The position numbers and the translations under genes are program-made. From Phycisphaeraceae bacterium (GTDB taxonomy: Bacteria > Planctomycetota > Phycisphaerae > Phycisphaerales > Phycisphaeraceae): a stretch of 40,158 nucleotides of DNA. Below the pieces are notes generated by a model. It did not search any database. It was not told where the DNA came from and worked only from the letters and a program-made list of their open reading frames with translations. Of the stretch, positions 1 through 14,226 are shown in pieces. Numbering within the stretch: position 1 is the first letter of the stretch; the number at the start of each line of letters is the position of its first letter. The stretch lies in the NCBI GenBank assembly GCA_028280965.1, contig JANQKT010000238.1:1-40158 (forward strand), written 5' to 3'.

Positions 1-3000
1 CCATTTCCAGAGCACGCCCTCGGGGTCGCCCTCGGGCACACCCCGGGCAGCATGTGGCGTGCCTATTCTCAGGAACTCGGCCTGCTGGCTCGAGTTGCCA
101 TAGCCGTCGCCAAACCGCTCATTGATCGCAACAAAAGTATTGACCCAGCCCTTGAACCCTTCATAGATGTTCTCGGCTTGCGCGGTTAATCCGGCGGGCT
201 CGAACGGGCAGTTGCCCATCAGGTCCTGCGCCCGCTGGCACTGGCGGCCGAGCCACTTGACTTGATAGTCGAGGGCTTCTTTCTCCCGACGCAGCTTGCG
301 CATCATGTTTGCGAGGCGGCGGTCGGAGGTGCGTGCCGCGGAGGGCGCGATGGAGTTCCAGCCTTCTTTTGCGTCGTTCCATGCGTCATTGAGGTCATAT
401 TCAAAAAGCCCATAGGGGTCTTTCCCAAGACCAACCGCAAAGTGCCCTAAATGCAAGTGCTGCCCATCGACATCCCCCGCCGGGTCCGGTGTGATGAACC
501 GTCCGGTGGCGGGGTCGTAGTTGCGAGCACGCATATGCAGCAAATCGGTCACGTAGTCCTTGCGTTGCCCGGTGAACTCGATCGGGCAGAGCGTGAACAA
601 CGAGGGCGTGTCGTTGTAAAGACGCAGCCGCGCCGAGCCGTCGCAGGGCGTCATCGCCCAGGGGTCGTTGGCTGAAATTGTTCCGTCGGCAGGTAGCGGT
701 CCAGTTACCAGTCCGAAGTAGATCCCGAAGTCCGCGTCATCAACATCACCGTCATTATCGAGGTCGCACGCGGGGTTTGACGAGGGGCCGTTGTTCGGGC
801 CCGTGAAAGCACCGAACATGATGCCGTCGTCCGCGGCGTCCACTTTGCCGTCACCGTTAAAATCCGCTCGCAGGACGGCAAGGATATCATGGCTCCCGGT
901 TAGGCTTGACCGGAAGTGCTGCACCTCGCCGGAGTCGGAATACTCTTTACGCTCGATCACCGACCCACCCGCGCTGACCACTCCCATGACGTTGTACTGC
1001 TGGTCCTGGAGCGCGAAGCACCGGGTCTCCAGCGAGTCGTCCTGGCCCGGATTGAGGTTGTGCCGGATCTCGGCGAGTGAGTCGAGGTAGTGCCCGGCGC
1101 CGAAGGCCATCGAGTCCCAGACGTACTGGGTGATCACCTTACCCGCGCCGTTATGGGTCTCGATCAGGCGGTCACCAAGGTAGTAGTGGGTGATCAGTTC
1201 GGAAGACAGATATCCATCTGCGGTCCAGACCCAGTCCTGGACCCGGCGGCCATAAGCGTCGTACTTGTACAGGGCAAGGAGGGAGCCGTTCTTGATCTGC
1301 TGCGTCGCGCTGTCGTAATACGCGTTGTAGACCAGGTACAGGCGTCCTTGGTTATCGTAGACGTAACGCCGCGACCCATCGAAGGTCAGGTTCCCCGCGG
1401 CGTCGTACTCGAAGTCCGTTTCCTGCTCATCGCTCTGATTCGGGTCGTAGCTGAAGCGATCCACCAGCTCGGTAACGCTGGTCGCCCCCGTCTTGATCGT
1501 CACATCATCAACAAAGCAGTCGTCATCGCTGGCAATAAAACCCATCCGCCCAGGCGCGATCAGATCGAAGTTGCCGTTGGCAGCCGTCGTCTGAAAAACG
1601 ACATTCGTCCAAGAAGAAGGTTCGTTGGGTGAGTTATGGCACCAAACCGTGACGTATTGGCCCGTGCTCTGCACGCGGTACCACAGCCGGTCGGTCGCCG
1701 AGGCTGTTGGTTGGCTGTTCGCCGTGGTCGGGGTGAAGGTCGTGTAGGCCCGGCCCTTGACGTACTTGCGCCCTTCCGGCGCGGACCCGCTGTTGCTGTG
1801 GGTGAGGCGCAGGGCCTCGAAGTCGCCCGGGCCGTGGTGGTTAAACACGAACAGCAGAGAGGCATCGGTCGCGGACGCCGACGCCCGGTCCACCGAGAAA
1901 GTCACATCAAAAACAGTAGCGCGCAGGTGGCGGTGCAGGATCGCCCCGCCCTGCTTGGCCGTGATCGGGTCGCCGCCGAGGTTCAGGGCTCCGTCGTGCC
2001 CTGCCCCCGTGTCCTTGTCTCCATACGCGTGCGAGACCGCCTCCCAGGCCGGGCCGATGCGGCGCGGGAAGACCTGGGGCGCGAACTGGATGCCGTCGAA
2101 CTCGGCGTTGTTGACCTCGGTGTACAGCCCCCAGCGACCCGACGGGAAGCCGTCGGCGATTGCGGGCTGCCCAAAGGTGTGCTGATCGAGGGTCTGGTAG
2201 CTGGGCCGGAGCGAGACGGGGTAGTCGGTGTTGGCCGCAGTTCCCGTCTGGGGGATTGTGAAGAGGACCGTACTCTTGCCGCTGGAGGTGACCCGGTAGG
2301 TCTCCCAGTTGCCCGTTGCGTAGTTCTTCGCGTGGATGTAGTAGTCCGTCGCGGACTTGTAGCCAAAGACATAGCCCACCAGGCCGGAGGTCGTGGTCGA
2401 AGTCACGCGGACCGCGCCGAACATCGGCATCGGGCCGGATTCGGGGCTGGCCAGCACCACGCCCGGGTTCGAGTTGTTGATCGCGCCGTTGGTCACCCGC
2501 AGGCGGCTGCCACTCACGATCGACAGCGAGGTGCCGCCCGCAGGAAGAACCGCTTCGAGTTCACCCGCCGAGCTCTGCGCCGCGGTATTGAAGTCAAACC
2601 CATCCACCACATTCCCGGGGTGGGTCACGTCTTGCTTGAGAGAGTTGATGCGGTTTTCGTCGTCGACCGTGACACCGAACGCGTCGGACTGGGCCTCGTC
2701 GTCGACCGTGGTGCGGTTGCCCAGGTGGTCGAGCTCTCGGGTCTGGTCGTACAGGTTCCAGTAGGCCGATTCGGTGACGGTGGTGGAACTGCCCGTGCCG
2801 GTCACCTCGATCTGGCCGGCAAAAGTGGATGTCACACGGTTCAGCCCGTCGTGGGTAAATTTGCGCGAGTAGGCCTTGTGCTTCTGTCGGTCGTCGTACA
2901 GGCGGCGGCCGACTTCGTCGTAGCCATGCTTGATATGGATCAGGTCATTCGTGCCCGCCCCACCGGAAGCTGCGTCGGTACGCTCCCACTGCATACGCGT

Positions 3001-6000
3001 CGCCTGCCCGAAGCGATCCCACGACGCGTCATACGGATCACTCCCGGAAGTGCCTTCACCGGCCTCATCAACGAAATCCAGGCGGGTCTTGGCGACCGGG
3101 TAGGTCTTGCGGACCAGCGCGCCCGAGCCGAGGTAGTCGTACTGAGAAACGTCGTAATCGGAGAACCCGCCGGGGGTCGTGTCTTTGAGCCCGGAGGGGC
3201 GGCTGATCAGGTCCCCGATGGTGTTCGCCGCCCCGTACTGCAGATCAACCTCACGGCCGTTGGGGTAAACGACCGTCTCGATACGGTTGCCCTTGGCAAA
3301 CGCCCCGCTCCCGGGGGAGGCCTCGCGCTTGATCTCGACGATCTGGGCGCCGGGCCCAAAGGGCGCGGCGTAGTCCTGGCTCTGGGTCTTGAGGTTGTAG
3401 AAGCCGTCGTAAGTATTCGTGATACGTGATGACTCGTTTGTGCCCGCATCATTTGAGTACGTCGAGGCACGCAAAACCTCGCCATACGTCCCATACACGT
3501 AGTTGATACGCTTGGTATAACCGCCAACACCACCGCTTGTCACCTTGCGGTGGTCCAACCAGCCCTCATCGGTGTACTCGGAGGCCCAAACAAGTGCACG
3601 CCGGTCCTTGAACGTGTGTGAGCGGCCGTCAGCCATGTAGGTGTATTCTTCACGGTCGTAGCCACCCGCGTTGTCATTCAGCTGGCCAGCTGCTTCGCTG
3701 TCGTCGCTCTCCGCGGTGATCTTCGCGCGGAGCAGGTCATTCCGGGGAATCGGGCAGCCCTTGTCATTGAGCTCGCTCGAATAGACGTACTTCTGGGTCT
3801 GGATCGTGCCCGCCGCGAGCTGGGCCTCCACCGTCTTGAGCTGGCCGTACTCGTTGTAGGTGCTGACCGTGATCCGGTTCGAGTCGCTGGTTGCCGCGCC
3901 GGGGGTGAAAATCAGGCCGTCCCAGTTCTCGATCATCCGGGTCTTACGGCCCGCCGCGTCGTGGGCATAGTGCGTCTTGCGGCCGTCGTTACGTATCTTG
4001 ACTTCATCCTGTCCGCGCTCATCGAATTGAGTAACCGAAACCCGATACTCATCAGAGGTATTCACATTGCGAGCCGCGACATCCGGGTCTGCTTCATTGG
4101 GGATGCCGTCGCTATCGGCGTCGATAGGATTGCCCTGCGCATCAAACACATAACGCGTGGTCCCGTTGTCCTGGCCGAAGTCCACGGTACGCTCCAGACG
4201 CCCGCCCTTGTCGTAACGGTTGACCAGCACACTCAGCACGCTGTTCGTCTTGCTCAGCGGCCCCACCGTCGTCGTGTCGTCGTGGTACCGGGCGAACGAG
4301 GTTTCGACAACCGGACGATCAGCGTTGTCGTAGATCGTTTCTGATTGAGACAAGACCGTGTCGGCATCGGCGTGGTCGCGGAACCGCCAGGCCCGGTCGA
4401 AGGCGTCGTAATCGGTCGCGGTAAACCCGCCGCGCGGGCCGGATTCCTTGACCTGACGTTCGGCGTTGTCGTACTCGTATGAGGTTTCCAGATAGGCACC
4501 GGTCGACCCGGCGTTCGTCTCGTACTGGCGGACATGATTGAGCCGCCAGGGCCGGTTGTTCGCGGTGTCGTAGTGCCAGGTCACCTTGCCTAGGAGCGTG
4601 CCCGTCTGGTTGTTCTGCGTGTAGATCGCCTCGGTCACGCGGTCATCGTGGGTACGCGTGATCGCAGACCAGGGTCCGTGGTCCGGCTTGGACCATCGAG
4701 TCTCGCTGTCGGCCCCGAGCAGCTCATCGAAGTTCGTGCCGGTGTAATCAGCAACGCCACCGGTCAGCGTGGCGACCGGCCGGATGTACTGCACCCGTGT
4801 GCGGTAGTCCATAAAGTCGTCTTCAGCAGCATCCCCATCACGGTCCTGGTCGTAGAAATGCGTGACGACCTTGACCATATTGTTAGTGCCGCCGCCCGTC
4901 CCGGAGGGATCGGCTGCGGTGGCGCCAGAGTCGTCGGTCCCGACCCACTCTTCGATGTAGCGCCCTGCGGCATCGTAGACCGCCGCCGAGATCGTGCCCG
5001 TCTCGTCCACGCTCCGGAGGATCTGGTTGAGGTGGTTGACCGCCAGCACCGAAGTTTCGGTGTAGTGGGTGCCCTTGGTCCCCTCGTCATCAAACCCCGT
5101 CAGCGTATCGATCTTGTGGTAGACCCGCTCACGAATACGGATGCCGCGCCAGTCATACGCGAACGTGATCCGGCTCAGCGGCGTCAGCGCCTCGGCGCCG
5201 GTCGGCGTCGCGCCGTTCCAATCGTTACCGGCGTTGGTGAGCTTCGCGTCGTACTGCATCACCAGCTGGCCCAGCCGGTCGTAACGCATGACAATGATTG
5301 CGCCCGCATCCGCCTGGTGCGGATACTCCCGCTCCTCGTAGTACACCGGGCCCGTGCTGGTCTGCGGGTCGTAGGCAGCGCCCGCCGAATCGACGAGCCC
5401 ATAGGTATAGAACCTCTTGACCCCGGCGCCATCGGCGCTGCTAGTCAGCCGACCAGTTGCGTCAAAGGTCCGCTGTTCGGTCAGGACCACCGCCGTCGTT
5501 GTGGCGCCCTGGCTGTCAAGGCCCTGGCGGGAGCGGGTCAGCGTCCGGCCCGCTGCGTCAAAGGTCTTGATGATCCGCATCGCACCAACGGTGCCCACCT
5601 TCATGTCACAGACCTTCAGCCTGCCCAAGGCGTCGGGCGCATAGGAAGTGGTCAGGCCCCGCTCATCGGTCTGACTCGCCATGAATATATGGCCGTATGC
5701 AGTCACCGTGCTGTAGTCCGCGGTGTTGGCCTGAGGGTTCGCCGCCTTCGCGCCGTAGTAATAGTCGCGCGCGAGAGGGCGCCCGCGATCATCCTCCGAA
5801 GTCGATTCCGAATATGAGACCGTCGTCCAGGCACCACCGCGGACGATCTTCTCGAGCTTCATCGTGTCCGACCCGTCCGAGTCGTTGATCGTGGTCGTCC
5901 GCTTCGTGCCATGAGCGATGCCGGTGATGTTGCCGTTGCCATCCCGGGTCGGGAACCCACGCTCACTGATACGGGTGCGCACCATGCCATTCTGCGAGCG

Positions 6001-8619
6001 ATCACGCAGCGAAACCGTGCCGTCGGGGTTTTCGGTACGCACGATACGGAACGCGAGCCCCTGGCCCGGCGCCATAAACACCGACTTGGTGACGTAATGC
6101 CCCAGATGATCGGCGTCGCTGGCCAGGGCATTGAGGAACGCCTCCGTTTTCGCTTCGTCGTCAATCCCTGCGTAACCCGCCTTGGGGTCCTGCGTCGCGC
6201 AAACAATCTCCCAGGACTCGTACTCGGTGCCGTTGGCCGTGTCGTAGGACCACACCAACGAGTAAAAGGTTGCAACGGGAATCATCGTGCCCGGGTTCGA
6301 CGGGTCTTCGACGTATTGAATGGTCTCGCGGATGACCTCGATGTCGTCGTTAGGGTGCGTGTCGTTCAGATCGGTGTACTGGCTGCGGAACGTCGTCACG
6401 AGGTTGCCAACCTCAGAACCCGCAGGGTTCATTGGATCGAACGCCCCGCTTTCACCAAGCGATTGCACCGTCTTAACCAGGTTCCCCGCGCTGTCGTACG
6501 CGTAGTATTCCCAGTCGCCCCTGTCGGTCTGGTAAAGCCGTGGGTATCCGTTACTGTGATAAGACCACGTCTCAATCAGAGAAGCGACCTCGTTCGCCGG
6601 GACGGGGTCCGGGTCCGCGATCGTCCGGCGTTCGATCAGCCGCTGACGATTTGCGTCCAGTGCATAAACCTCAACCACCTTGGACACAACCGTGTTGACG
6701 TTGTCCTCGCTGATCACGTGGGTGACCGTTTTCTCGTTCCCGGATTCCTCGATGTCGATCCAGCTTTTCCGCAGAGCAGCGCCGGTGCCGGTGTTCAAGC
6801 CTTCGGACAGCACCCACCGCTTGTTCACCGCGTCCCAGTTCAGCTCCGAAACATCCTCGGCAATCAGTGTGCCATCGGATTTGTAGGAGCTGTCGGTGAC
6901 GCGGATGACCGTGCCGTCCGATCCCGGCCCCAAGTCCTGCACCCTCACCTTGCGGAACGCGTTGCCCACCGGGTTCCACTTGTTGGACCCGTTCCAGGTC
7001 GCGTCGTTGTAGTACTCCACCGTGTACCCGTCCGAAGCGGACGTGTTCACGTTTAGCAGGGACGCCACCATCGGCGAACCGCCGTTCCACTCCCCGTTCA
7101 TGATCTGGCTAACCGCGCCGCTGGATGAATCGGTAATGAGTTGGTTCGTGCCGTTCTCGACATCGGGGTCCAAGTTCGCCGTCAACAAACTGGGGTCATC
7201 CACGTCAGGGTCGGGCTCGGACATCTCCACCGACATGACCCCTGTCGGCTGCCCGGGCTCATCCGAACCCGCATCGATCGCGATCTCAGCGTCGCCGTTG
7301 GAGGCATCCAGCTTGGTCGTAGAGCCTTCCCCGCCCCCGCATCGGCCTTCATTGGCCCGCCCCACCCCATGCTCGCTGTCAGGCGAGGGGCTGCTGTCGG
7401 GCTCCGGCAAATCAGAGAGGAGGAATGCTACATCTTGGATAAACCAGCTAGATTCATATGATTTGTGAAGGGGGTCAAGTGTTTCTAGCTCCCCGATCTC
7501 AGGAAAATCCTTGATCTCCAAGACTGGCTTGGAGAGAAACGCACCAGAAGAAGGTACTTTGCCCTCATCAAATCGATGCCATTTGTTATCGATTGGGATC
7601 GGAGACTTGTACTGATCATAAAAACGATTGTCAGGATACCCAGGCTCTTGGTAGCCACGAAGGAAGATGATAATCGTGTCGCTTTGATTAACGCCTGCAA
7701 GCGTGCTCGCCGAGATCGCCGCCACCCCTCCATATCCGACACCATCGGCTTCTCCCCAGACATCCGATGATTGTGTGGGATACTCGTATGAATAGTACTG
7801 CACGAGAAGACCGACGCGGGGTAAGTAGGAAGGCGTCGCGGGATCTGCGGCTAATCCAACGTCTGCAGCACTAAGTAAGAAGCCATCTACAATTAGATTG
7901 TCCCACGCATCTTCTATCGCGGCTTCTGCAGAATTATGCGGCCCATACGCAGCAGGCCAGCTCAATTCCATCACCGGATAATCAAGCCCGCCATGAGCAA
8001 AATAAGCGGAATCGCCGAGCTTTCGCGCACCAAGCTTGTAGATGTACTCCAAGACTGTATCGAGCGCTTCTTTGTAGTTCTCAACCGTCACCGCAGCAGA
8101 AATCCCCCCCGCACTGGACCAGGTCGGAGCCCCCGGGAGCCAGGTCAGCGGGAAATCGTCTTCGACAAAATCAACGGCCTGTGGCGGGTTTCCGCTGATC
8201 GCCTCTTCCGGATCAATAAAGTACTCGTAGAGCTTCTTGCCCGGTGTATAGGGAGTACCGGTGTAAAACGCCTCAACCACCGCGCCAACAAGCTCAGTCG
8301 CGTATACCGGATCAGCGTACGCACGTGGGTACCATTTTTCACGCGGCTTCGGCGGCGTCTTCAGGTCTTCATCGCCGCAGCCTGTCGAATTGGGCCAAGG
8401 CCCGTAGTAGCTGCCCAGTTGGGTCGGGTCGTGCACGTTCCCGTTTAATTGAGAAATCAAGAAGTATAGCGCGTTGTACTCACGCATCGCCTCCTCGATC
8501 GGCAGGCGCCCGGGAACCGTAGAGCCGCTGCTGTCTTGGGCCATCGCGGAATGCACAAACCCAAGCAGTGCAATGACCAAACAAATACGCTTCGCGGCAC
8601 CCAACATAGGCAGACTCAT
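1..8619 (-). CDS. Giant secreted RHS/YD-repeat protein with dockerin-like and LamG-like insertions (3' end outside window)
   Basis: One uninterrupted frame runs from ATG at 8619 past the window edge (>2,873 residues). AAAGG lies 9 bases before the ATG. Residues 1-28 form a signal peptide with likely cleavage after AMA. Residues about 30-550 match no family I know. From about residue 750 there are many YD/RHS repeats, such as YDRLGQLVMQYD (~1111), YDAAGRY (~1225) and HDAAGRKT (~1550). A thrombospondin-3-like loop DADSDGIPNEADPD is near 1500. Residues ~2005-2376 look like two jelly-roll (LamG/concanavalin-like) units. YD repeats resume at ~2400. Two EF-hand-like loops at ~2583-2635 resemble a type I dockerin. 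The hallmark RHS core end NYDPATGRFITPDP follows at ~2700, then a variable C-terminal tail. RHS proteins form a shell around a C-terminal effector; the effector is not visible here. Exported or surface location is inferred. The gene probably shares a transcript with the upstream 286-residue membrane protein (85 bases apart). Confidence 0.93.
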   Translation of the reverse strand, partial: MSLPMLGAAKRICLVIALLGFVHSAMAQDSSGSTVPGRLPIEEAMREYNALYFLISQLNGNVHDPTQLGSYYGPWPNSTGCGDEDLKTPPKPREKWYPRAYADPVYATELVGAVVEAFYTGTPYTPGKKLYEYFIDPEEAISGNPPQAVDFVEDDFPLTWLPGAPTWSSAGGISAAVTVENYKEALDTVLEYIYKLGARKLGDSAYFAHGGLDYPVMELSWPAAYGPHNSAEAAIEDAWDNLIVDGFLLSAADVGLAADPATPSYLPRVGLLVQYYSYEYPTQSSDVWGEADGVGYGGVAAISASTLAGVNQSDTIIIFLRGYQEPGYPDNRFYDQYKSPIPIDNKWHRFDEGKVPSSGAFLSKPVLEIKDFPEIGELETLDPLHKSYESSWFIQDVAFLLSDLPEPDSSPSPDSEHGVGRANEGRCGGGEGSTTKLDASNGDAEIAIDAGSDEPGQPTGVMSVEMSEPDPDVDDPSLLTANLDPDVENGTNQLITDSSSGAVSQIMNGEWNGGSPMVASLLNVNTSASDGYTVEYYNDATWNGSNKWNPVGNAFRKVRVQDLGPGSDGTVIRVTDSSYKSDGTLIAEDVSELNWDAVNKRWVLSEGLNTGTGAALRKSWIDIEESGNEKTVTHVISEDNVNTVVSKVVEVYALDANRQRLIERRTIADPDPVPANEVASLIETWSYHSNGYPRLYQTDRGDWEYYAYDSAGNLVKTVQSLGESGAFDPMNPAGSEVGNLVTTFRSQYTDLNDTHPNDDIEVIRETIQYVEDPSNPGTMIPVATFYSLVWSYDTANGTEYESWEIVCATQDPKAGYAGIDDEAKTEAFLNALASDADHLGHYVTKSVFMAPGQGLAFRIVRTENPDGTVSLRDRSQNGMVRTRISERGFPTRDGNGNITGIAHGTKRTTTINDSDGSDTMKLEKIVRGGAWTTVSYSESTSEDDRGRPLARDYYYGAKAANPQANTADYSTVTAYGHIFMASQTDERGLTTSYAPDALGRLKVCDMKVGTVGAMRIIKTFDAAGRTLTRSRQGLDSQGATTTAVVLTEQRTFDATGRLTSSADGAGVKRFYTYGLVDSAGAAYDPQTSTGPVYYEEREYPHQADAGAIIVMRYDRLGQLVMQYDAKLTNAGNDWNGATPTGAEALTPLSRITFAYDWRGIRIRERVYHKIDTLTGFDDEGTKGTHYTETSVLAVNHLNQILRSVDETGTISAAVYDAAGRYIEEWVGTDDSGATAADPSGTGGGTNNMVKVVTHFYDQDRDGDAAEDDFMDYRTRVQYIRPVATLTGGVADYTGTNFDELLGADSETRWSKPDHGPWSAITRTHDDRVTEAIYTQNNQTGTLLGKVTWHYDTANNRPWRLNHVRQYETNAGSTGAYLETSYEYDNAERQVKESGPRGGFTATDYDAFDRAWRFRDHADADTVLSQSETIYDNADRPVVETSFARYHDDTTTVGPLSKTNSVLSVLVNRYDKGGRLERTVDFGQDNGTTRYVFDAQGNPIDADSDGIPNEADPDVAARNVNTSDEYRVSVTQFDERGQDEVKIRNDGRKTHYAHDAAGRKTRMIENWDGLIFTPGAATSDSNRITVSTYNEYGQLKTVEAQLAAGTIQTQKYVYSSELNDKGCPIPRNDLLRAKITAESDDSEAAGQLNDNAGGYDREEYTYMADGRSHTFKDRRALVWASEYTDEGWLDHRKVTSGGVGGYTKRINYVYGTYGEVLRASTYSNDAGTNESSRITNTYDGFYNLKTQSQDYAAPFGPGAQIVEIKREASPGSGAFAKGNRIETVVYPNGREVDLQYGAANTIGDLISRPSGLKDTTPGGFSDYDVSQYDYLGSGALVRKTYPVAKTRLDFVDEAGEGTSGSDPYDASWDRFGQATRMQWERTDAASGGAGTNDLIHIKHGYDEVGRRLYDDRQKHKAYSRKFTHDGLNRVTSTFAGQIEVTGTGSSTTVTESAYWNLYDQTRELDHLGNRTTVDDEAQSDAFGVTVDDENRINSLKQDVTHPGNVVDGFDFNTAAQSSAGELEAVLPAGGTSLSIVSGSRLRVTNGAINNSNPGVVLASPESGPMPMFGAVRVTSTTTSGLVGYVFGYKSATDYYIHAKNYATGNWETYRVTSSGKSTVLFTIPQTGTAANTDYPVSLRPSYQTLDQHTFGQPAIADGFPSGRWGLYTEVNNAEFDGIQFAPQVFPRRIGPAWEAVSHAYGDKDTGAGHDGALNLGGDPITAKQGGAILHRHLRATVFDVTFSVDRASASATDASLLFVFNHHGPGDFEALRLTHSNSGSAPEGRKYVKGRAYTTFTPTTANSQPTASATDRLWYRVQSTGQYVTVWCHNSPNEPSSWTNVVFQTTAANGNFDLIAPGRMGFIASDDDCFVDDVTIKTGATSVTELVDRFSYDPNQSDEQETDFEYDAAGNLTFDGSRRYVYDNQGRLYLVYNAYYDSATQQIKNGSLLALYKYDAYGRRVQDWVWTADGYLSSELITHYYLGDRLIETHNGAGKVITQYVWDSMAFGAGHYLDSLAEIRHNLNPGQDDSLETRCFALQDQQYNVMGVVSAGGSVIERKEYSDSGEVQHFRSSLTGSHDILAVLRADFNGDGKVDAADDGIMFGAFTGPNNGPSSNPACDLDNDGDVDDADFGIYFGLVTGPLPADGTISANDPWAMTPCDGSARLRLYNDTPSLFTLCPIEFTGQRKDYVTDLLHMRARNYDPATGRFITPDPAGDVDGQHLHLGHFAVGLGKDPYGLFEYDLNDAWNDAKEGWNSIAPSAARTSDRRLANMMRKLRREKEALDYQVKWLGRQCQRAQDLMGNCPFEPAGLTAQAENIYEGFKGWVNTFVAINERFGDGYGNSSQQAEFLRIGTPHAARGVPEGDPEGVLWKW

Positions 8620-8704
8620 GGATTCAACGCCTTTCTAGAATCAAAACGAACCGATTACTCTGACCCAGCACATATAAATACATCAACAAAAACAATAAAG
8701 ACGC

Positions 8705-9565
8705 CTACCGGCTCACTTCGCCGGACATCACACGCTCTTCCACCCGGCGCATCGCATCCAGGTGCTGATCGATATGATTTCGATTGGACTCGACTTGCTG
8801 GCGCTCGCTGAAGGAGAGCGCCTGCTCGATGCTGACGCCCCGACGCCCCGCTTCTTCCATCACACGCTTGAGCCGGTCGGTGCTGATGGTCGAGAGGTGG
8901 CGCAGCTCGACCGGCAGGGACTCAGAGAACTGCGCCGCCCGGCGCCACTGGTCAGCCTTGTGCGGGACCACCTGCATCGCATATTCACCCGTAGCGAAAC
9001 GAAGCGCCTCCACCGCCGACACCGCTTCGGATACGTTTGTACGCAATTCGCGTAGGCGATTGGGATCTGGGCGTGTCTGGCGGATGGGCTCGACCGGGAG
9101 ATCGATATCCAGCCCGGATAAATCCGGCGCGGCCTGGCTCATACGGAGGTCGCGTTCGTAGTGGACAAGGGCACGCCTGGCATTCGTGACCGCCTGGTCC
9201 GCGGCATCGAGACGGGCCTGGTTCTGCTCGGTCCACTCGGCGAGACGGGTCAGCACCGCTTCGGCCTGGCCCTCGGACAGTTCCATCGCCGCCAGATCCT
9301 CCGCCGTCAGCGCCACGGCGTGGCACGACCGCATCACATGGCTGGCAACAGCCCGGTCGAGTCCGGGCTCAGCCTGTGCTTCTGGCGTTTCGCCTGAAGT
9401 CTGGGCCTGGGCTGTGGAAGCCAGCCAATCGGGTGTGCTGACGTTCAAGAACACGCCCCAGGCACCGAGGCCGATGGCGCCCGCGCCCAGCAAACCTTGT
9501 AGGGCATATTTGCGCTTGCGCGCGGTGTGATCGGCGGGGGCGGGAGAAAGAATTGGCTTAGTCAT
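8705..9565 (-). CDS. Membrane-anchored hypothetical protein, probable operon partner of the RHS gene
   Basis: 286 residues from ATG 9565. I chose this start because GGAGG lies 9 bases upstream; a longer frame opens at 9640, but its extra 25 residues contain no sensible signal. A basic N-terminus (about residues 12-18) is followed by one hydrophobic segment at about 20-42, then an alanine/glutamine-rich stretch. The rest is a hydrophilic, mostly helical domain with likely coiled coil at about 120-165 (many E, Q, R, A) and again in the last 60 residues. Topology is probably N-in with a periplasmic body. No domain is recognised. It lies 85 bases upstream of the RHS gene in the same direction, so co-expression is likely, and a role in export or anchoring of the RHS protein is possible but unproven. 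Confidence 0.75.
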   Translation of the reverse strand: MTKPILSPAPADHTARKRKYALQGLLGAGAIGLGAWGVFLNVSTPDWLASTAQAQTSGETPEAQAEPGLDRAVASHVMRSCHAVALTAEDLAAMELSEGQAEAVLTRLAEWTEQNQARLDAADQAVTNARRALVHYERDLRMSQAAPDLSGLDIDLPVEPIRQTRPDPNRLRELRTNVSEAVSAVEALRFATGEYAMQVVPHKADQWRRAAQFSESLPVELRHLSTISTDRLKRVMEEAGRRGVSIEQALSFSERQQVESNRNHIDQHLDAMRRVEERVMSGEVSR

Positions 9566-10030
9566 CTTGTCATGCCTCCGAGCGGAGATCCATCGAATCC
9601 ATGTACACAGCACAGCTACAAGCCCGACCGGCGCACGCACGCCGGTGGCTTTCTCCCGCTCTCATTGTGTCTCAAGCCCAGAACCCCCACAGATCGGTTC
9701 CCCTAGGTGAGACTTGAAGCCCGGCCTGCACATCGCCGGAGTCAACAGGTTGTACCCAAGACGAATCTGTGCGCCAAGAGTTAGTTTGGGCATGAACGCC
9801 ATTTTATCGCTCCCGGAAGCTCCACACCTCTGGCAGAGATCACGGTCTTGTGCGCACGCCTAGTGTGGTGTGGTTGCTAACCCCCTGCCCTGCCAAGGCT
9901 AGCCGGTATTCTTTTTCCTATTGCCCCGCCCCGCTTATGCGTGGTTCGTGCCCACGCCCCAACTTCGGGGGGGTGTGAGAATTTGGGGTTATGTTCAATA
10001 CGGCTCTAAGAACATGTGATCGAGGTTACG
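9566..10030. other. Gene-free intergenic stretch of about 460 bases
   Basis: I see no convincing coding frame. It must hold the promoter of the minus-strand membrane-protein/RHS pair, but I cannot assign -35/-10 boxes with confidence. A 7-bp GC-rich hairpin (ACCGGCG, six-base loop, CGCCGGT) at 9627-9646 would fall in the 5' leader of that transcript. A second G/C-rich stem-loop near 9952-9977 lacks a U-tract. Composition is more mixed than in neighbouring core genes. Confidence 0.5.
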
Positions 10031-10240
10031 AGAACTGGCCCGCTTGAATTGTTAGTCTGGTCCAACCCGAAAGGATCAGGCGATGCCAGGCAAGCGACAC
10101 ACGACGGAGCAGAAGGTCCGGATCTTGCGTGAGGCCGAGCAGGCCGGCAAAACGATTGTTGACGTCTGCCGCGAGCACCAGATCAGCGAGCAGACGTTCC
10201 ACCGCTGGAAGAGCGAGTTCGGGATGCTGGAGGTCGACCT
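10031..10240 (+). mobile_element. Left-end remnant of an IS3-family insertion sequence
   Basis: The first ~50 codons after ATG 10083 encode the helix-turn-helix start of an IS3-type OrfA (MPGKRHTTEQKVRILREAEQ, then SEQTFHRWKSEFGML). About 50 bases before the ATG, the stretch starting near 10031 (AACTGGCCCGC...) resembles an IS3-type terminal repeat followed by a short leader. The similarity to OrfA stops after the GML motif. There is no leucine-zipper part, no OrfB with a DDE domain and no right end, so only a fragment remains. The exact left terminus is a guess. Confidence 0.6.
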
Positions 10241-10544
10241 GCTGGACGGAGTAATCCGTGGCCACTCGATTAAGGGGGTTACGAATCAGCACGAACTGCA
10301 CAGGCTCTTGAATCACTATGGCCTTCTCGACACTACAGGCGTGCCTGACCGCTATCGAGATGGCGAAACAGGTAGGCGAGACCGGATCGCCGTGCTTAAT
10401 CGCGCAATGGCCGACCTGTTGATCGAGTGTGTCGATCCTGATGATCAGAGTACCACTGGTCCGCAATCGAGTGATGATGATGGACCAGAGCCCCGTGAGG
10501 CCAAGACGATCGATCCAAAGACGGTGGAGGGGATTGAGGCATGA
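10083..10544 (+). pseudogene. Chimeric open frame: truncated IS3 OrfA fused to unrelated sequence
   Basis: 153 codons. Residues 1-50 are the OrfA helix-turn-helix of an IS3-type transposase. Residues ~51-153 have no OrfA character; they are acidic near the end (SSDDDGPEPREAKT) and may be the 3' part of an older gene into which the insertion sequence jumped or recombined. The frame is open across the joint, so a product could be made, but transposase activity is ruled out because the coiled-coil part and OrfB are missing. It lies about 190 bases upstream of the integrase gene in the same direction. Confidence 0.55.
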
Positions 10545-10591: not shown

Positions 10592-10736
10592 ACCGCTCTT
10601 TTTTCGCCCCGTGCGCGCACATACAAATAAATCACAGAATGTGTCTGTATCACGTACATATGGGAAAGAAAAAGAAGTGAACGAGAGTGTCGAAATGATC
10701 TCTTGGCATAAACGTCGTAGACGAAAGGACTCTGCC

Positions 10737-12089
10737 ATGGCCTCGATCTCAACCAATAAGCAGAACGGGCACCGCACGATCTACGTGACCGGCCCGGACA
10801 AGCGCCGCCCCCCGATCCGCCTGGGTAAGTGCTCAAAGAAGCAGGCGACGGTCGTCCTCGGCTTTGTGGAGGACCTGAACCGCGCCAAGAGGACCAACAG
10901 CAGCCCGGCCGACAAGACGCTGGCCTGGCTCAAGGACATCGACCCGGTGCTGTACGAGCGCATTGCTGCCGTGGGCCTGGTCGAGCCGCGCAATGATCAG
11001 ACCTTGGGCGAGTTCCTAGATGAGTACCTGGCGATACGCGAGCCGAGCGTCAAGCCCTTCACCTACTCCCGGATGAAGCAAAGCAAACGCCACGCGCTGG
11101 CCCACTTCGGGGCAGAGAAGCCGCTCCGCTCGATCACCGATGCCGATGCACAAGCGTACCGGGCGTTCCTGCTGAACGATCAGGCACTGGCTGAGGCCAC
11201 CTCCCGTAAACACTGCGGCGACGCCCGGATGTGGTTCAACTACGCCATTAAAACCGGGCTTGTCGATCACAACCCGTTCATGTGCGTGCCGGTCTCGGTG
11301 GGCGGCAACAAGAAGCGCCAGGCGTTCATCTCCGACGAATATGCACAGAAGGTGTTGGCTGAGTTGCCGACGGCGGAGCTGCGTCTGATCTTCGCTCTAG
11401 CCCGATGGGGCGGCCTACGGATTCCCAGCGAGCCCCGTGAACTGGTGTGGTCAGACGTGGGCTGGGACCGCAGACGACTGCGAGTCCCCTCGCCGAAGAC
11501 CGAACATCACACCGGGCACGAGTGCCGCACCATTCCCCTGTTCCCAGAGATCGAGCAAGCGCTGCGCGAGGTCTTCGAGAAGGCCGAGGACGGCTCCGTG
11601 CACGTGCTGCCATTCTTGCAAGAGCGAAGTGGCGCGTCCCTCCGCAAGCCCATGCTGGCCGCCATACAGCGAGCGGGGCTGAAAGTGTGGCCAAGGTTGT
11701 TTCACAACCTACGGGCCTCCCGCCAGACCGAACTGGCCGCGGTTCGACCGGCTCACGTCGTCTCAGCCTGGATGGGCAACACCGAGCAAGTTGCCGAGCG
11801 TCACTACCTCCAAGTCAGGGACGAAGACTACGAAGCGGTGCTCAACGAGGAAGTGGTGCGCAAAGCGGTGCGCGCAATGGCGACAGACCACGCTCATGCC
11901 CGCCACGGCTATAACGAAAAAGCCCCCTCTGATGCCAGAGAGGGCCATTGTGCGGTAAGTCCCGCTAAGCGCGAGACCAATAAAGTGCCCGTGACAGGAT
12001 TCGAACCTGTACTCCCTTGCGGGAACTGCCACCTGAAGACAGCGCGTCTGCCAGTTCCGCCACACGGGCGTGGGGATTGGGTAGTGTAG
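10737..12089 (+). CDS. Tyrosine recombinase / phage-type integrase, C-terminus running antisense through tRNA-Leu
   Basis: 450 residues from ATG 10737; AAAGGA lies 7 bases upstream, so I prefer this to the longer frame opening at 10611. An N-terminal arm-type domain (1-~85) is followed by a SAM-like core-binding domain (~85-190) and a catalytic domain (~200-370). Catalytic residues visible are Arg228 (in WGGLR), a lysine in SPKTEHHTG, His323 and Arg326 (FHNLR), and nucleophile Tyr357 (ERHYLQV). The usual LGH motif reads AWMGN. Residues after about 390 are not integrase-like: they are the antisense of the tRNA-Leu terminator, the whole tRNA and part of its promoter (VPVTGFEPVLP is the usual antisense reading of a tRNA T-arm). 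It probably drives integration of an element at this tRNA. The region before the gene (10,540-10,730) is AT-rich, unlike the chromosome around it. Confidence 0.9.
   Translation: MASISTNKQNGHRTIYVTGPDKRRPPIRLGKCSKKQATVVLGFVEDLNRAKRTNSSPADKTLAWLKDIDPVLYERIAAVGLVEPRNDQTLGEFLDEYLAIREPSVKPFTYSRMKQSKRHALAHFGAEKPLRSITDADAQAYRAFLLNDQALAEATSRKHCGDARMWFNYAIKTGLVDHNPFMCVPVSVGGNKKRQAFISDEYAQKVLAELPTAELRLIFALARWGGLRIPSEPRELVWSDVGWDRRRLRVPSPKTEHHTGHECRTIPLFPEIEQALREVFEKAEDGSVHVLPFLQERSGASLRKPMLAAIQRAGLKVWPRLFHNLRASRQTELAAVRPAHVVSAWMGNTEQVAERHYLQVRDEDYEAVLNEEVVRKAVRAMATDHAHARHGYNEKAPSDAREGHCAVSPAKRETNKVPVTGFEPVLPCGNCHLKTARLPVPPHGRGDWVV
11917..11945 (-). terminator. Rho-independent terminator of tRNA-Leu
   Basis: Read on the minus strand, a 9-bp stem with one C.A mismatch (11937-11945 pairing with 11922-11930, six-base loop) is followed directly by five U. 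It begins about 40 bases after the 3' end of the tRNA. It lies wholly inside the integrase frame on the other strand. Confidence 0.75.
11986..12069 (-). tRNA. tRNA-Leu (CAG anticodon)
   Basis: 84 bases, class II. The acceptor stem GCCCGTG/CACGGGC pairs perfectly (12069-12063 with 11993-11987), and the discriminator base is A (11986). The D-arm start TGGCGGAACTGGCAGACGCG is typical of bacterial leucine tRNAs. The anticodon loop CTTCAGG gives CAG. There is a long variable arm (GTTCCCGCAAGGGAG) and a T-loop GGTTCGAATCC. CCA is not encoded. The 3' end faces the integrase gene, the usual attachment position for tRNA-directed elements. Confidence 0.95.
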
Positions 12090-12110
12090 CTTGGAGGGTG
12101 GGATCGTCAA
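12083..12110 (-). promoter_or_regulatory. Promoter of tRNA-Leu
   Basis: On the minus strand, TTGACG (12110-12105), a 16-base spacer and TACACT (12088-12083) precede the mature tRNA 5' end by 13 bases, which fits a sigma-70 promoter with a short 5' leader. The TAG stop of the integrase frame lies antisense to this -10 box. Confidence 0.7.
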
Positions 12111-13643: not shown

Positions 13644-14213
13644 TCACGCCAGATCCAGCAGCGTGATGTTCGTGTTGGAGTAGATGCACAGCTCACCGGC
13701 GATGGTCAGGCCGTTGCGGCAGATATCGGACGGGGCCTGATCGGTGTGGGCCAGCAGCGCGCGGGCGGCGGCGGTGGCGAAGGTGCCGCCCGAGCCGATG
13801 CCGATGACACCGTCGCTGGGCTCGATGACGTCGCCGGTGCCGGAGACGAGCAGCGAGACCTCGGCGTCGGCGACGACCAGCAGCGACTCGAGCCGGCGGA
13901 GCGCGCGGTCGGTCCGCCACTGCTTGGCCAGCTCGACCGCGGCCTTCTTGACGTTCTGCGGCGAGTCCTGCAGGTGGCGCTGGAACCGCTCGAGCAGCGC
14001 GAAGGCGTCGGCGGCGGCGCCGGCGAAGCCGACGAGCACGCCCCTGCCGCCGGCGCCGAAATCGTCGAGTTTACGGACCTTGACGGCGTCGGCCTTGGCG
14101 ACGGCGTTGTTCATCGTGACCTGCCCGTCGCCGGCGATCGCGACCGCCTCGCCCCGCCGAACGCAGAGCACGGTCGTGCTGCGGATCTCCAGGCCGTTTC
14201 GTTTGGTTGGCAT
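13644..14213 (-). CDS. hslV: ATP-dependent protease peptidase subunit HslV (ClpQ)
   Basis: 189 residues from ATG 14213. I prefer it to ATG 14222 because a TAGAAT hexamer sits 7 bases before it, matching the leaderless layout of neighbouring genes. HslV forms a double hexamer in the cytoplasm and degrades proteins unfolded by the ATPase HslU. The N-terminal nucleophile threonine is the first T of STTVL (Thr13 from this start), so a 12-residue propeptide must be removed; E. coli HslV has only Met. Other family marks are AIAGDGQVT, VLVGFAGAAADAF, AVELAKQWRTDRALRRLE, GIGSGG and AGELCIYSN. No hslU is in the window. It diverges from rsmH and converges with the sulfatase gene. Confidence 0.93.
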   Translation of the reverse strand: MPTKRNGLEIRSTTVLCVRRGEAVAIAGDGQVTMNNAVAKADAVKVRKLDDFGAGGRGVLVGFAGAAADAFALLERFQRHLQDSPQNVKKAAVELAKQWRTDRALRRLESLLVVADAEVSLLVSGTGDVIEPSDGVIGIGSGGTFATAAARALLAHTDQAPSDICRNGLTIAGELCIYSNTNITLLDLA

Positions 14214-14220
14214 AGCGGGC

Positions 14221-14226
14221 ATTCTA
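14221..14226 (-). promoter_or_regulatory. -10-like box TAGAAT of hslV (leaderless layout)
   Basis: TAGAAT ends 7 bases before ATG 14213. The RNA start would fall at or next to the start codon. No Shine-Dalgarno sequence is present. Confidence 0.45.

Follow-up and report, generated by a model that had tools for sequence, protein, structure and literature searches.

A planctomycete tyrosine integrase gene very probably carries its own attP, and integration of the element exchanges the C-terminus of the encoded protein. The gene that led to this result lies in the window, the whole stretch of 40,158 bp that was analysed, which is the entire contig C195 of a draft genome of 4.16 Mb in 263 contigs. 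Sequence comparison showed the arrangement itself, the continuity of the frame over the core, matched arm-like sites and unsplit genes, and at that level we show that the gene spans the predicted attP, that integration splits it, and that the protein predicted after integration retains its catalytic domain, its last codons and its stop coming from the antisense tRNA.

In the circular element, a single frame would run from the N-terminal, core-binding and catalytic domains through some 85 disordered linker residues into a C-terminal helix hairpin. Along the linker DNA, a P arm-like site would come first, in many cases followed by a terminator, then a core that matches a tRNA or tmRNA 3′ end exactly, and last a P′ arm-like site. 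On recombining with the chromosomal target, the element would rebuild the tRNA, giving it the 3′ end and often the terminator. The integrase gene would stay beside the tRNA with its last 53–123 codons swapped for a few antisense tRNA codons, and the original C-terminus would be left stranded at the other end of the element.

The window integrase and its missing end

The open frame of the integrase extends from 10611 to 12089 on the plus strand, and the ATG at 10737 is the start that agrees with the relatives in a 29-row alignment. The front part of the split gene (10737–12089, +) was thus delimited from the ORF, the domain matches and the comparison with contig C90 of the same genome, and it comprises, in order, the N-terminal, core-binding and catalytic domains, the linker, the antisense tRNA codons and TAG. 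The catalytic domain (PF00589, Phage_integrase) was placed at 11355–11822 (+; residues 249–404 of the frame from 10611) by a Pfam scan of the window protein, with a score of 33.1 bits against a cut-off of 27.1, and the same scan matched a SAM-like domain. Columns R, K, R, W and Y were invariant across 29 relatives, the window included, and we take them to be the catalytic positions (Arg, Lys, Arg, His/Trp, Tyr) of tyrosine recombinases. An HTH_Tnp_1 protein is encoded just upstream (10083–10541); a further part of a transposase was looked for there and none was seen.

As the sequence-only reading had noticed, the frame (10737–12089, +) runs antisense through a terminator and the entire tRNA-Leu(CAG) gene (11985–12069, −), although the end given there, 12110, was 21 nt too far, the TAG that closes the integrated form lying at 12087–12089 (+), upstream of the tRNA gene. 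This tRNA is the integration target and its 3′ end forms the integrase-side att core; the terminator-like hairpin and T run that serve it lie in the integrase linker (11917–11946, −; −20.3 kcal/mol). That reading had offered two explanations for the tail, and the first, replacement of the native C-terminus at the attachment site, is right, antisense tRNA codons standing in its stead. The second, that the frame had simply stayed open, is wrong: the linker belongs to the gene and contains an arm-like site, the terminator and the integrase's side of attP, and the element's opposite end still has the native C-terminus.

On the far side of the tRNA lies a gene that we take to be hslV (13644–14222, −), which had a single match in the window's genome and adjoins the same tRNA in three congeners (G016, G018 and G019). 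It anchors the chromosomal side: given its place beside the tRNA in all three, the right flank belongs to the chromosome and it is the integrase side that came in later, so that the tRNA does mark one boundary of an integrated element, as had been proposed. Comparison with an empty site in relatives had been suggested, and in G016 and G019 the same tRNA is followed by a terminator-like hairpin (identified by eye), with no integrase beside it. Two further features were observed at this locus. A sulfatase gene (PF00884, 12186–13607) separates the tRNA from hslV in the window, while in the three congeners hslV is next to the tRNA. G018 has a different integrase-like frame at the same tRNA-Leu(CAG) (L079, contig C7, 1474–2319), which points away from the tRNA, and the ORF listed for it reads the tRNA in sense orientation.

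The tRNA 3′ end did not recur in the window, in accord with the earlier failure to see a second copy in positions 1–10,000, nor was there one to the right of the tRNA within the window, and a search of the genome with 25 nt of the 3′ end at up to 3 mismatches found none. Neither of the two contrary findings named in the sequence-only reading was therefore made. The other end had been expected either left of the window or lost; it appears to lie on C90, where a decayed copy of the tRNA 3′ end retains 10 identical nt. This att core, CCGTGACAGG, occupies 11989–11998 of the window and recurs on C90 just after 8221, a short match with an adjacent indel, and its codons GTG ACA GG sit in the integrase frame on both contigs. 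The far end was detected solely through an arm-like site. The 19-nt site GGTGCGCAANNCGGTGCGC had exact copies in the genome only at 11855–11873 of the window and at 8320–8338 of C90, and it lies within the P arm-like site of the integrase linker (AGTGGTGCGCAAAGCGGTGCGC, 11852–11873, +), an identical 22-mer of which starts at 8317 on C90. With up to 2 mismatches the pattern occurred at 13 places, as compared with 8 for a reversed-pattern control, so only the two exact copies are meaningful. Near 8221, C90 has a terminator-like hairpin (−22.5 kcal/mol) followed by the shortened tRNA 3′ end with CCGTGACAGG, and after the core, in the frame of the window integrase, comes the missing C-terminus, ending in PDLQLLMTAWNDLPESIRQTIMALVQHVSGNSQEVDNG. 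That C90 carries the far end of the window's element is thus well supported by the agreement of arm-like site, core, frame and motif.

The repeat shared by the window and C90 is only 10 nt long with an indel, the two contigs are separate in the assembly, and past ~9.3 kb C90 carries a type II secretion cluster, the ATPase of which is 76% identical to its relative in G016; the cluster may be cargo or rearranged chromosome, and together these observations indicate that the element may be rearranged. Comparison of the left flank of C90 with the congeners in search of an empty site was without result. The best phage-like candidate was a DUF5681-like protein, below the cut-off, beside the C-terminus on C90. 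This gene (L119, 8396–8788) directly follows the C-terminus, and the next proteins in L163 and L041 looked similar by eye. On C90 the integrase frame and the next gene overlap by 8 nt, but where another ORF followed, as it did in 37 of 42 cases, the offsets lay anywhere between −11 and 379 nt; the coupling is therefore not general and we make no claim for it.

The split could be suicidal, inactivating the integrase and leaving elements trapped and reliant on a complete integrase from elsewhere, as the available text of PMC8371274 describes for archaeal suicidal integrases. Most loci in genomes are integrated and the far repeat of the window looks decayed, as would suit such a fate, but genome collections inherently favour integrated copies, the entire catalytic domain remains with the gene start, and the integrated enzyme of Myxococcus phage Mx8 is, in the available parts of the sources, less active (PMC4701971) and altered in specificity (PMC6070905), that is, changed and not dead. 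We regard suicide as unlikely.

We consider it less likely still, and indeed improbable, that the far end on C90 belongs to a different element, since lost, and that the window integrase is a solitary remnant. The unjoined contigs and the weak repeat would fit such a history, as would the lack of clear phage genes on C90 beyond 9.3 kb and in the window left of 10 kb. It has to contend with an arm-like site identical at 19/19 positions, whose C90 copy is the sole other exact one in the genome, with a core that matches the 3′ end of this very tRNA in the same frame, and with the detection of only one integrase of this family in the window's genome.

Relatives, far repeats and frame continuity

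A single-protein query against genome contigs returned no relative. Within the same taxonomic family, relatives were present in 36 of 51 genomes, counting the window's own. From 91 listed places the 70 stronger loci were taken, the window being one of them and L051 repeating the integrase of L012. The integrase stop lay within an antisense tRNA at 44 of the 70, the window included, with tRNAs of 12 amino-acid kinds; at two the frame traversed the whole tRNA, at seven it stopped before the tRNA and at one the tRNA was on the opposite strand. ARAGORN called no tRNA at the remaining 16, where, judging by eye, we take L017 to end in a tRNA-Phe and L027, L030, L031 and L032 in the 3′ end of a tmRNA. 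For named genomes the 29-row alignment was too diverse as a query and a 5-row alignment worked; the best 80 of 454 relatives were used, 78 of them titled planctomycete and two just ‘bacterium’, and removal of six duplicates of family loci left 74. A tRNA was overlapped at 55 of these 74, run through at five, preceded by the stop at two and not found at 12. Stops in an antisense tRNA at 44/70 and 55/74 loci make the arrangement more than chance. Cultured phages and plasmids (78 and 41 records) gave only distant matches, none covering 80% of the query, with 22–27% identity over 43–60% among the best 20 of each.

The tRNA was read in all three phases (14, 7 and 7 among 28 classified loci), so continuity of the frame is not a necessary consequence of the tRNA sequence. 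A quick and rough FastTree tree of 134 integrases required no fewer than 73 changes of target among 112 labelled rows, and no fewer than 25 changes of tRNA phase. Several loci departed from the common form. L012 and L051 (G019:C1, ~1204581–1206723) are two family integrases in tandem on the same strand, 224 nt apart, and perhaps represent two elements at one tRNA-Glu. The near-identical integrases L036 and L037 (from G050 and G048) stop 85 nt before an antisense tRNA-Val, keep an arm-like motif and have tail-like sequence continuing past the stop, perhaps a shortened form. The target of L245, from a Planctomycetia MAG, was called a selenocysteine tRNA by ARAGORN.

Upstream DNA of ~5 to 40 kb was searched for 35 family loci, and a far repeat comprising 14–35 nt of the tRNA or tmRNA 3′ end was found in 22. 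It was missing in the other 13, seven of them with 37–40 kb searched. As decoys, the reverse strand gave a repeat in 1 of 35, with 50 open codons after it as well, and the DNA of other loci, many of which share a tRNA type, gave repeats in 29 of 1190 pairs, 12 of these with 50 open codons. Thirteen elements that were measured spanned 5.8–26.0 kb. To assess continuity, we read the integrase frame across the core into the sequence past the far repeat, as it would be in a circular element. The frame stayed open for 55–123 codons in 22 of 22, while the other two frames reached 40 codons in 4/22 and 1/22. Among the 74 named loci, 23 of which had a full 10 kb upstream, 13 further far ends were found, all in frame over 53–100 codons, the other two frames reaching 50 codons in 2/13 each. 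Both marks of an element integrated in a tRNA gene, the rebuilt tRNA and, at the opposite end, a displaced piece of the 3′ end, were thus seen at 22/35 family and 13/74 named loci, and in all 35 relatives with a far end the frame continues for 53–123 codons. The antisense tRNA codons beyond the repeat that replace them numbered 0–16 in the 22 elements and 29 in the window. Apparent repeats at L258, L295, L301 and L311 were each the locus matching itself and were dropped; those of 11 nt at L068 and 11–12 nt at L036 were taken as chance.

That frames are merely open by chance in GC-rich DNA, the tail being read-through with no further integrase C-terminus, has in its favour the G+C content of 56–68% around the window gene, the abundance of long frames (161 ORFs of at least 80 aa in the window) and the reading of the tRNA in all three phases, but we rejected it on the far-end frame data as scarcely credible, in-frame continuation in 22/22 and 13/13 being set against few cases in the other frames, and the conserved C-terminal motif and the unsplit genes also oppose it.

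Unsplit genes, arm-like sites and terminators

A conserved C-terminal motif was seen after the far repeats, and the uninterrupted gene itself was found on viral contigs. A scan of these gave 73 loci, 69 of which were classified, the partial matches L227, L229, L230 and L231 being left out. Eight contigs carried six distinct unsplit genes (L159 = L160, L163, L170 = L171, L184, L190 and L192), and all six matched a C-terminus profile built without them, with E values of 2e-5 to 2e-17 when these tails only were searched; the other viral-contig tails belonged to integrated copies, were short or unclear, or ran off the end of the contig. A relative's genome has a further unsplit gene, L020, on a contig of 6.2 kb. 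Altogether, no stop interrupted the frame at the core in any of the 35 elements for which a far end was found, or in the unsplit genes, placing the predicted attP within the integrase gene. The unsplit L171 and L175, which is integrated in a tRNA-Ser, share 83% identity across the 1109 nt of integrase before the core, are alike through much of the linker and part ways at the T-arm sequence GGGATTCGAACC, making them, to judge by this alignment, close to a before-and-after pair. The profile also matched the minus strand of L099 (E 6e-8; start 6196, counted along the reversed strand), close to L046 but on the opposite strand to it, which is possibly the far end of another element.

The AlphaFold2 model of the unsplit L163 protein consists of a confident core, a disordered stretch (residues 373–458) and a helix hairpin (456–493) with a mean pLDDT of 77–92 over residues 461–490. 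Both arm-like sites and the att core are encoded within the disordered stretch (residues 374–453). Its N-terminus is predicted to form three strands and a helix, in which we see a presumable resemblance to the arm-binding domain of lambda Int, and the whole model matched the Tn1549 and lambda integrases in the PDB; for binding of arm sites by the N-terminal domain, this fold and the lambda Int match of the predicted model are suggestive only.

Arm-like sites of 19 nt, matched within an element, were found on both sides of the core. For 24 cases, made up of 22 elements, the window plus C90, and L020, we compared the 300 nt before the core with the 220–260 nt that follow the far repeat, and the best shared 19-mer averaged 17.7/19 within an element versus 14.2 between elements. 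None of 10,000 permutations reached the own-pair mean, reversed controls averaged 13.7, and the own pair ranked first in 16 of the 24. L017, L031 and L010 were weak or ranked third or lower, the weakest being L031 (14/19) and L010 (15/19, rank 5). The sites typically take the form of direct repeats, GCGCAAAATCCGGCGCA being an example. Translation follows different frames on the two sides and gives AQNPAQ and GAKSGA, recurring peptide motifs that are therefore at least partly shadows of a DNA motif, and we infer that the sites probably bind the integrase.

At 58 of 114 loci with a tRNA, the tRNA strand carried a hairpin with a T run no more than 100 nt past the tRNA, while letter shuffles predicted 12.6 and integrase coding DNA gave 6. 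This terminator DNA is on the element side of the core, indicating that the element often supplies both the tRNA 3′ end and the terminator. On the displaced side a terminator was found in 8 of 22, below what would be expected had every original survived.

Comparison with known systems and significance

Among the systems compared, all judged from the available portions of the cited papers, a close likeness is to Myxococcus phage Mx8 (and Mx9), in which attP lies in the integrase gene, the site is of tRNA type and the C-terminus is exchanged (PMC4701971, PMC6070905), 112 residues giving way to 13 in Mx8 (PMC4701971). The Mx8 and SSV integrases extend across attP (Islander paper, PMC4383910). Mx8 Int also has an antisense-tRNA-like stretch, STGLEPVLLG, before its C-terminal part, but it is at most a distant relative of the window family (22% identity over 209 aa, E 0.003 in a single comparison), lacks the hairpin motif and gave no significant match to the C-terminus profile. 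On the planctomycete side, unlike Mx8, there is an entire family, and it uses many different tRNA and tmRNA genes as targets.

The SSV-type (suicidal) archaeal integrases are alike in that the att site lies in the gene, which is split by integration into a tRNA, but there the catalytic domain is on the C-terminal fragment (PMC8371274), whereas in the planctomycete family it is on the front fragment, with the tyrosine before the core. According to the available part of that review, the suicidal type is exclusively archaeal (PMC8371274); the planctomycete integrases are bacterial. PF16795 (Phage_integr_3, SSV-type) was not among the Pfam matches at E 0.001 when the window protein was scanned. 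The gene altered on integration in mycobacteriophage BPs is reportedly the repressor, and so, in contrast to the present family, not the integrase. In that phage, too, integration at att is tied to a changed phage gene product (PMC4557955, in part). Streptococcal ICEs share an att within the integrase gene and a C-terminus that differs between excised and integrated forms (PMC4701971), but use a serine integrase and a protein-coding target, rumA.

The principle is thus known from Mx8 and SSV, and what is new is a widespread variant in Planctomycetota with changeable targets; a literature search, with few subscription papers within reach, found no description of an integrase-spanning attP in planctomycetes. 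We infer that the helix hairpin affects recombination, and by analogy with Mx8 its loss most likely lowers or changes excision. Tentatively, and with rather less assurance than for the exchange itself, we propose a Planctomycetota-wide integrase family whose own coding sequence serves as attP, in which the disordered linker may accept any tRNA 3′ end in any phase and so allow the target to change freely, and in which removal of the hairpin by integration may act as a switch between integration and excision.

An att site inside the cognate integrase gene is, in the available text of PMC4701971, present in very few elements; here it is the usual design across a Planctomycetota-wide family. It accounts for integrases whose C-termini consist of antisense tRNA, VGDTGLEPVTSTV among the named loci being one case, and gives exact ends to elements that are otherwise hard to delimit. 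The integrases form a source of enzymes for many tRNA genes, with their core and arm sites predicted. In 35 elements the free and integrated proteins can both be read from the sequence, making directional control by C-terminal exchange testable in many natural pairs.
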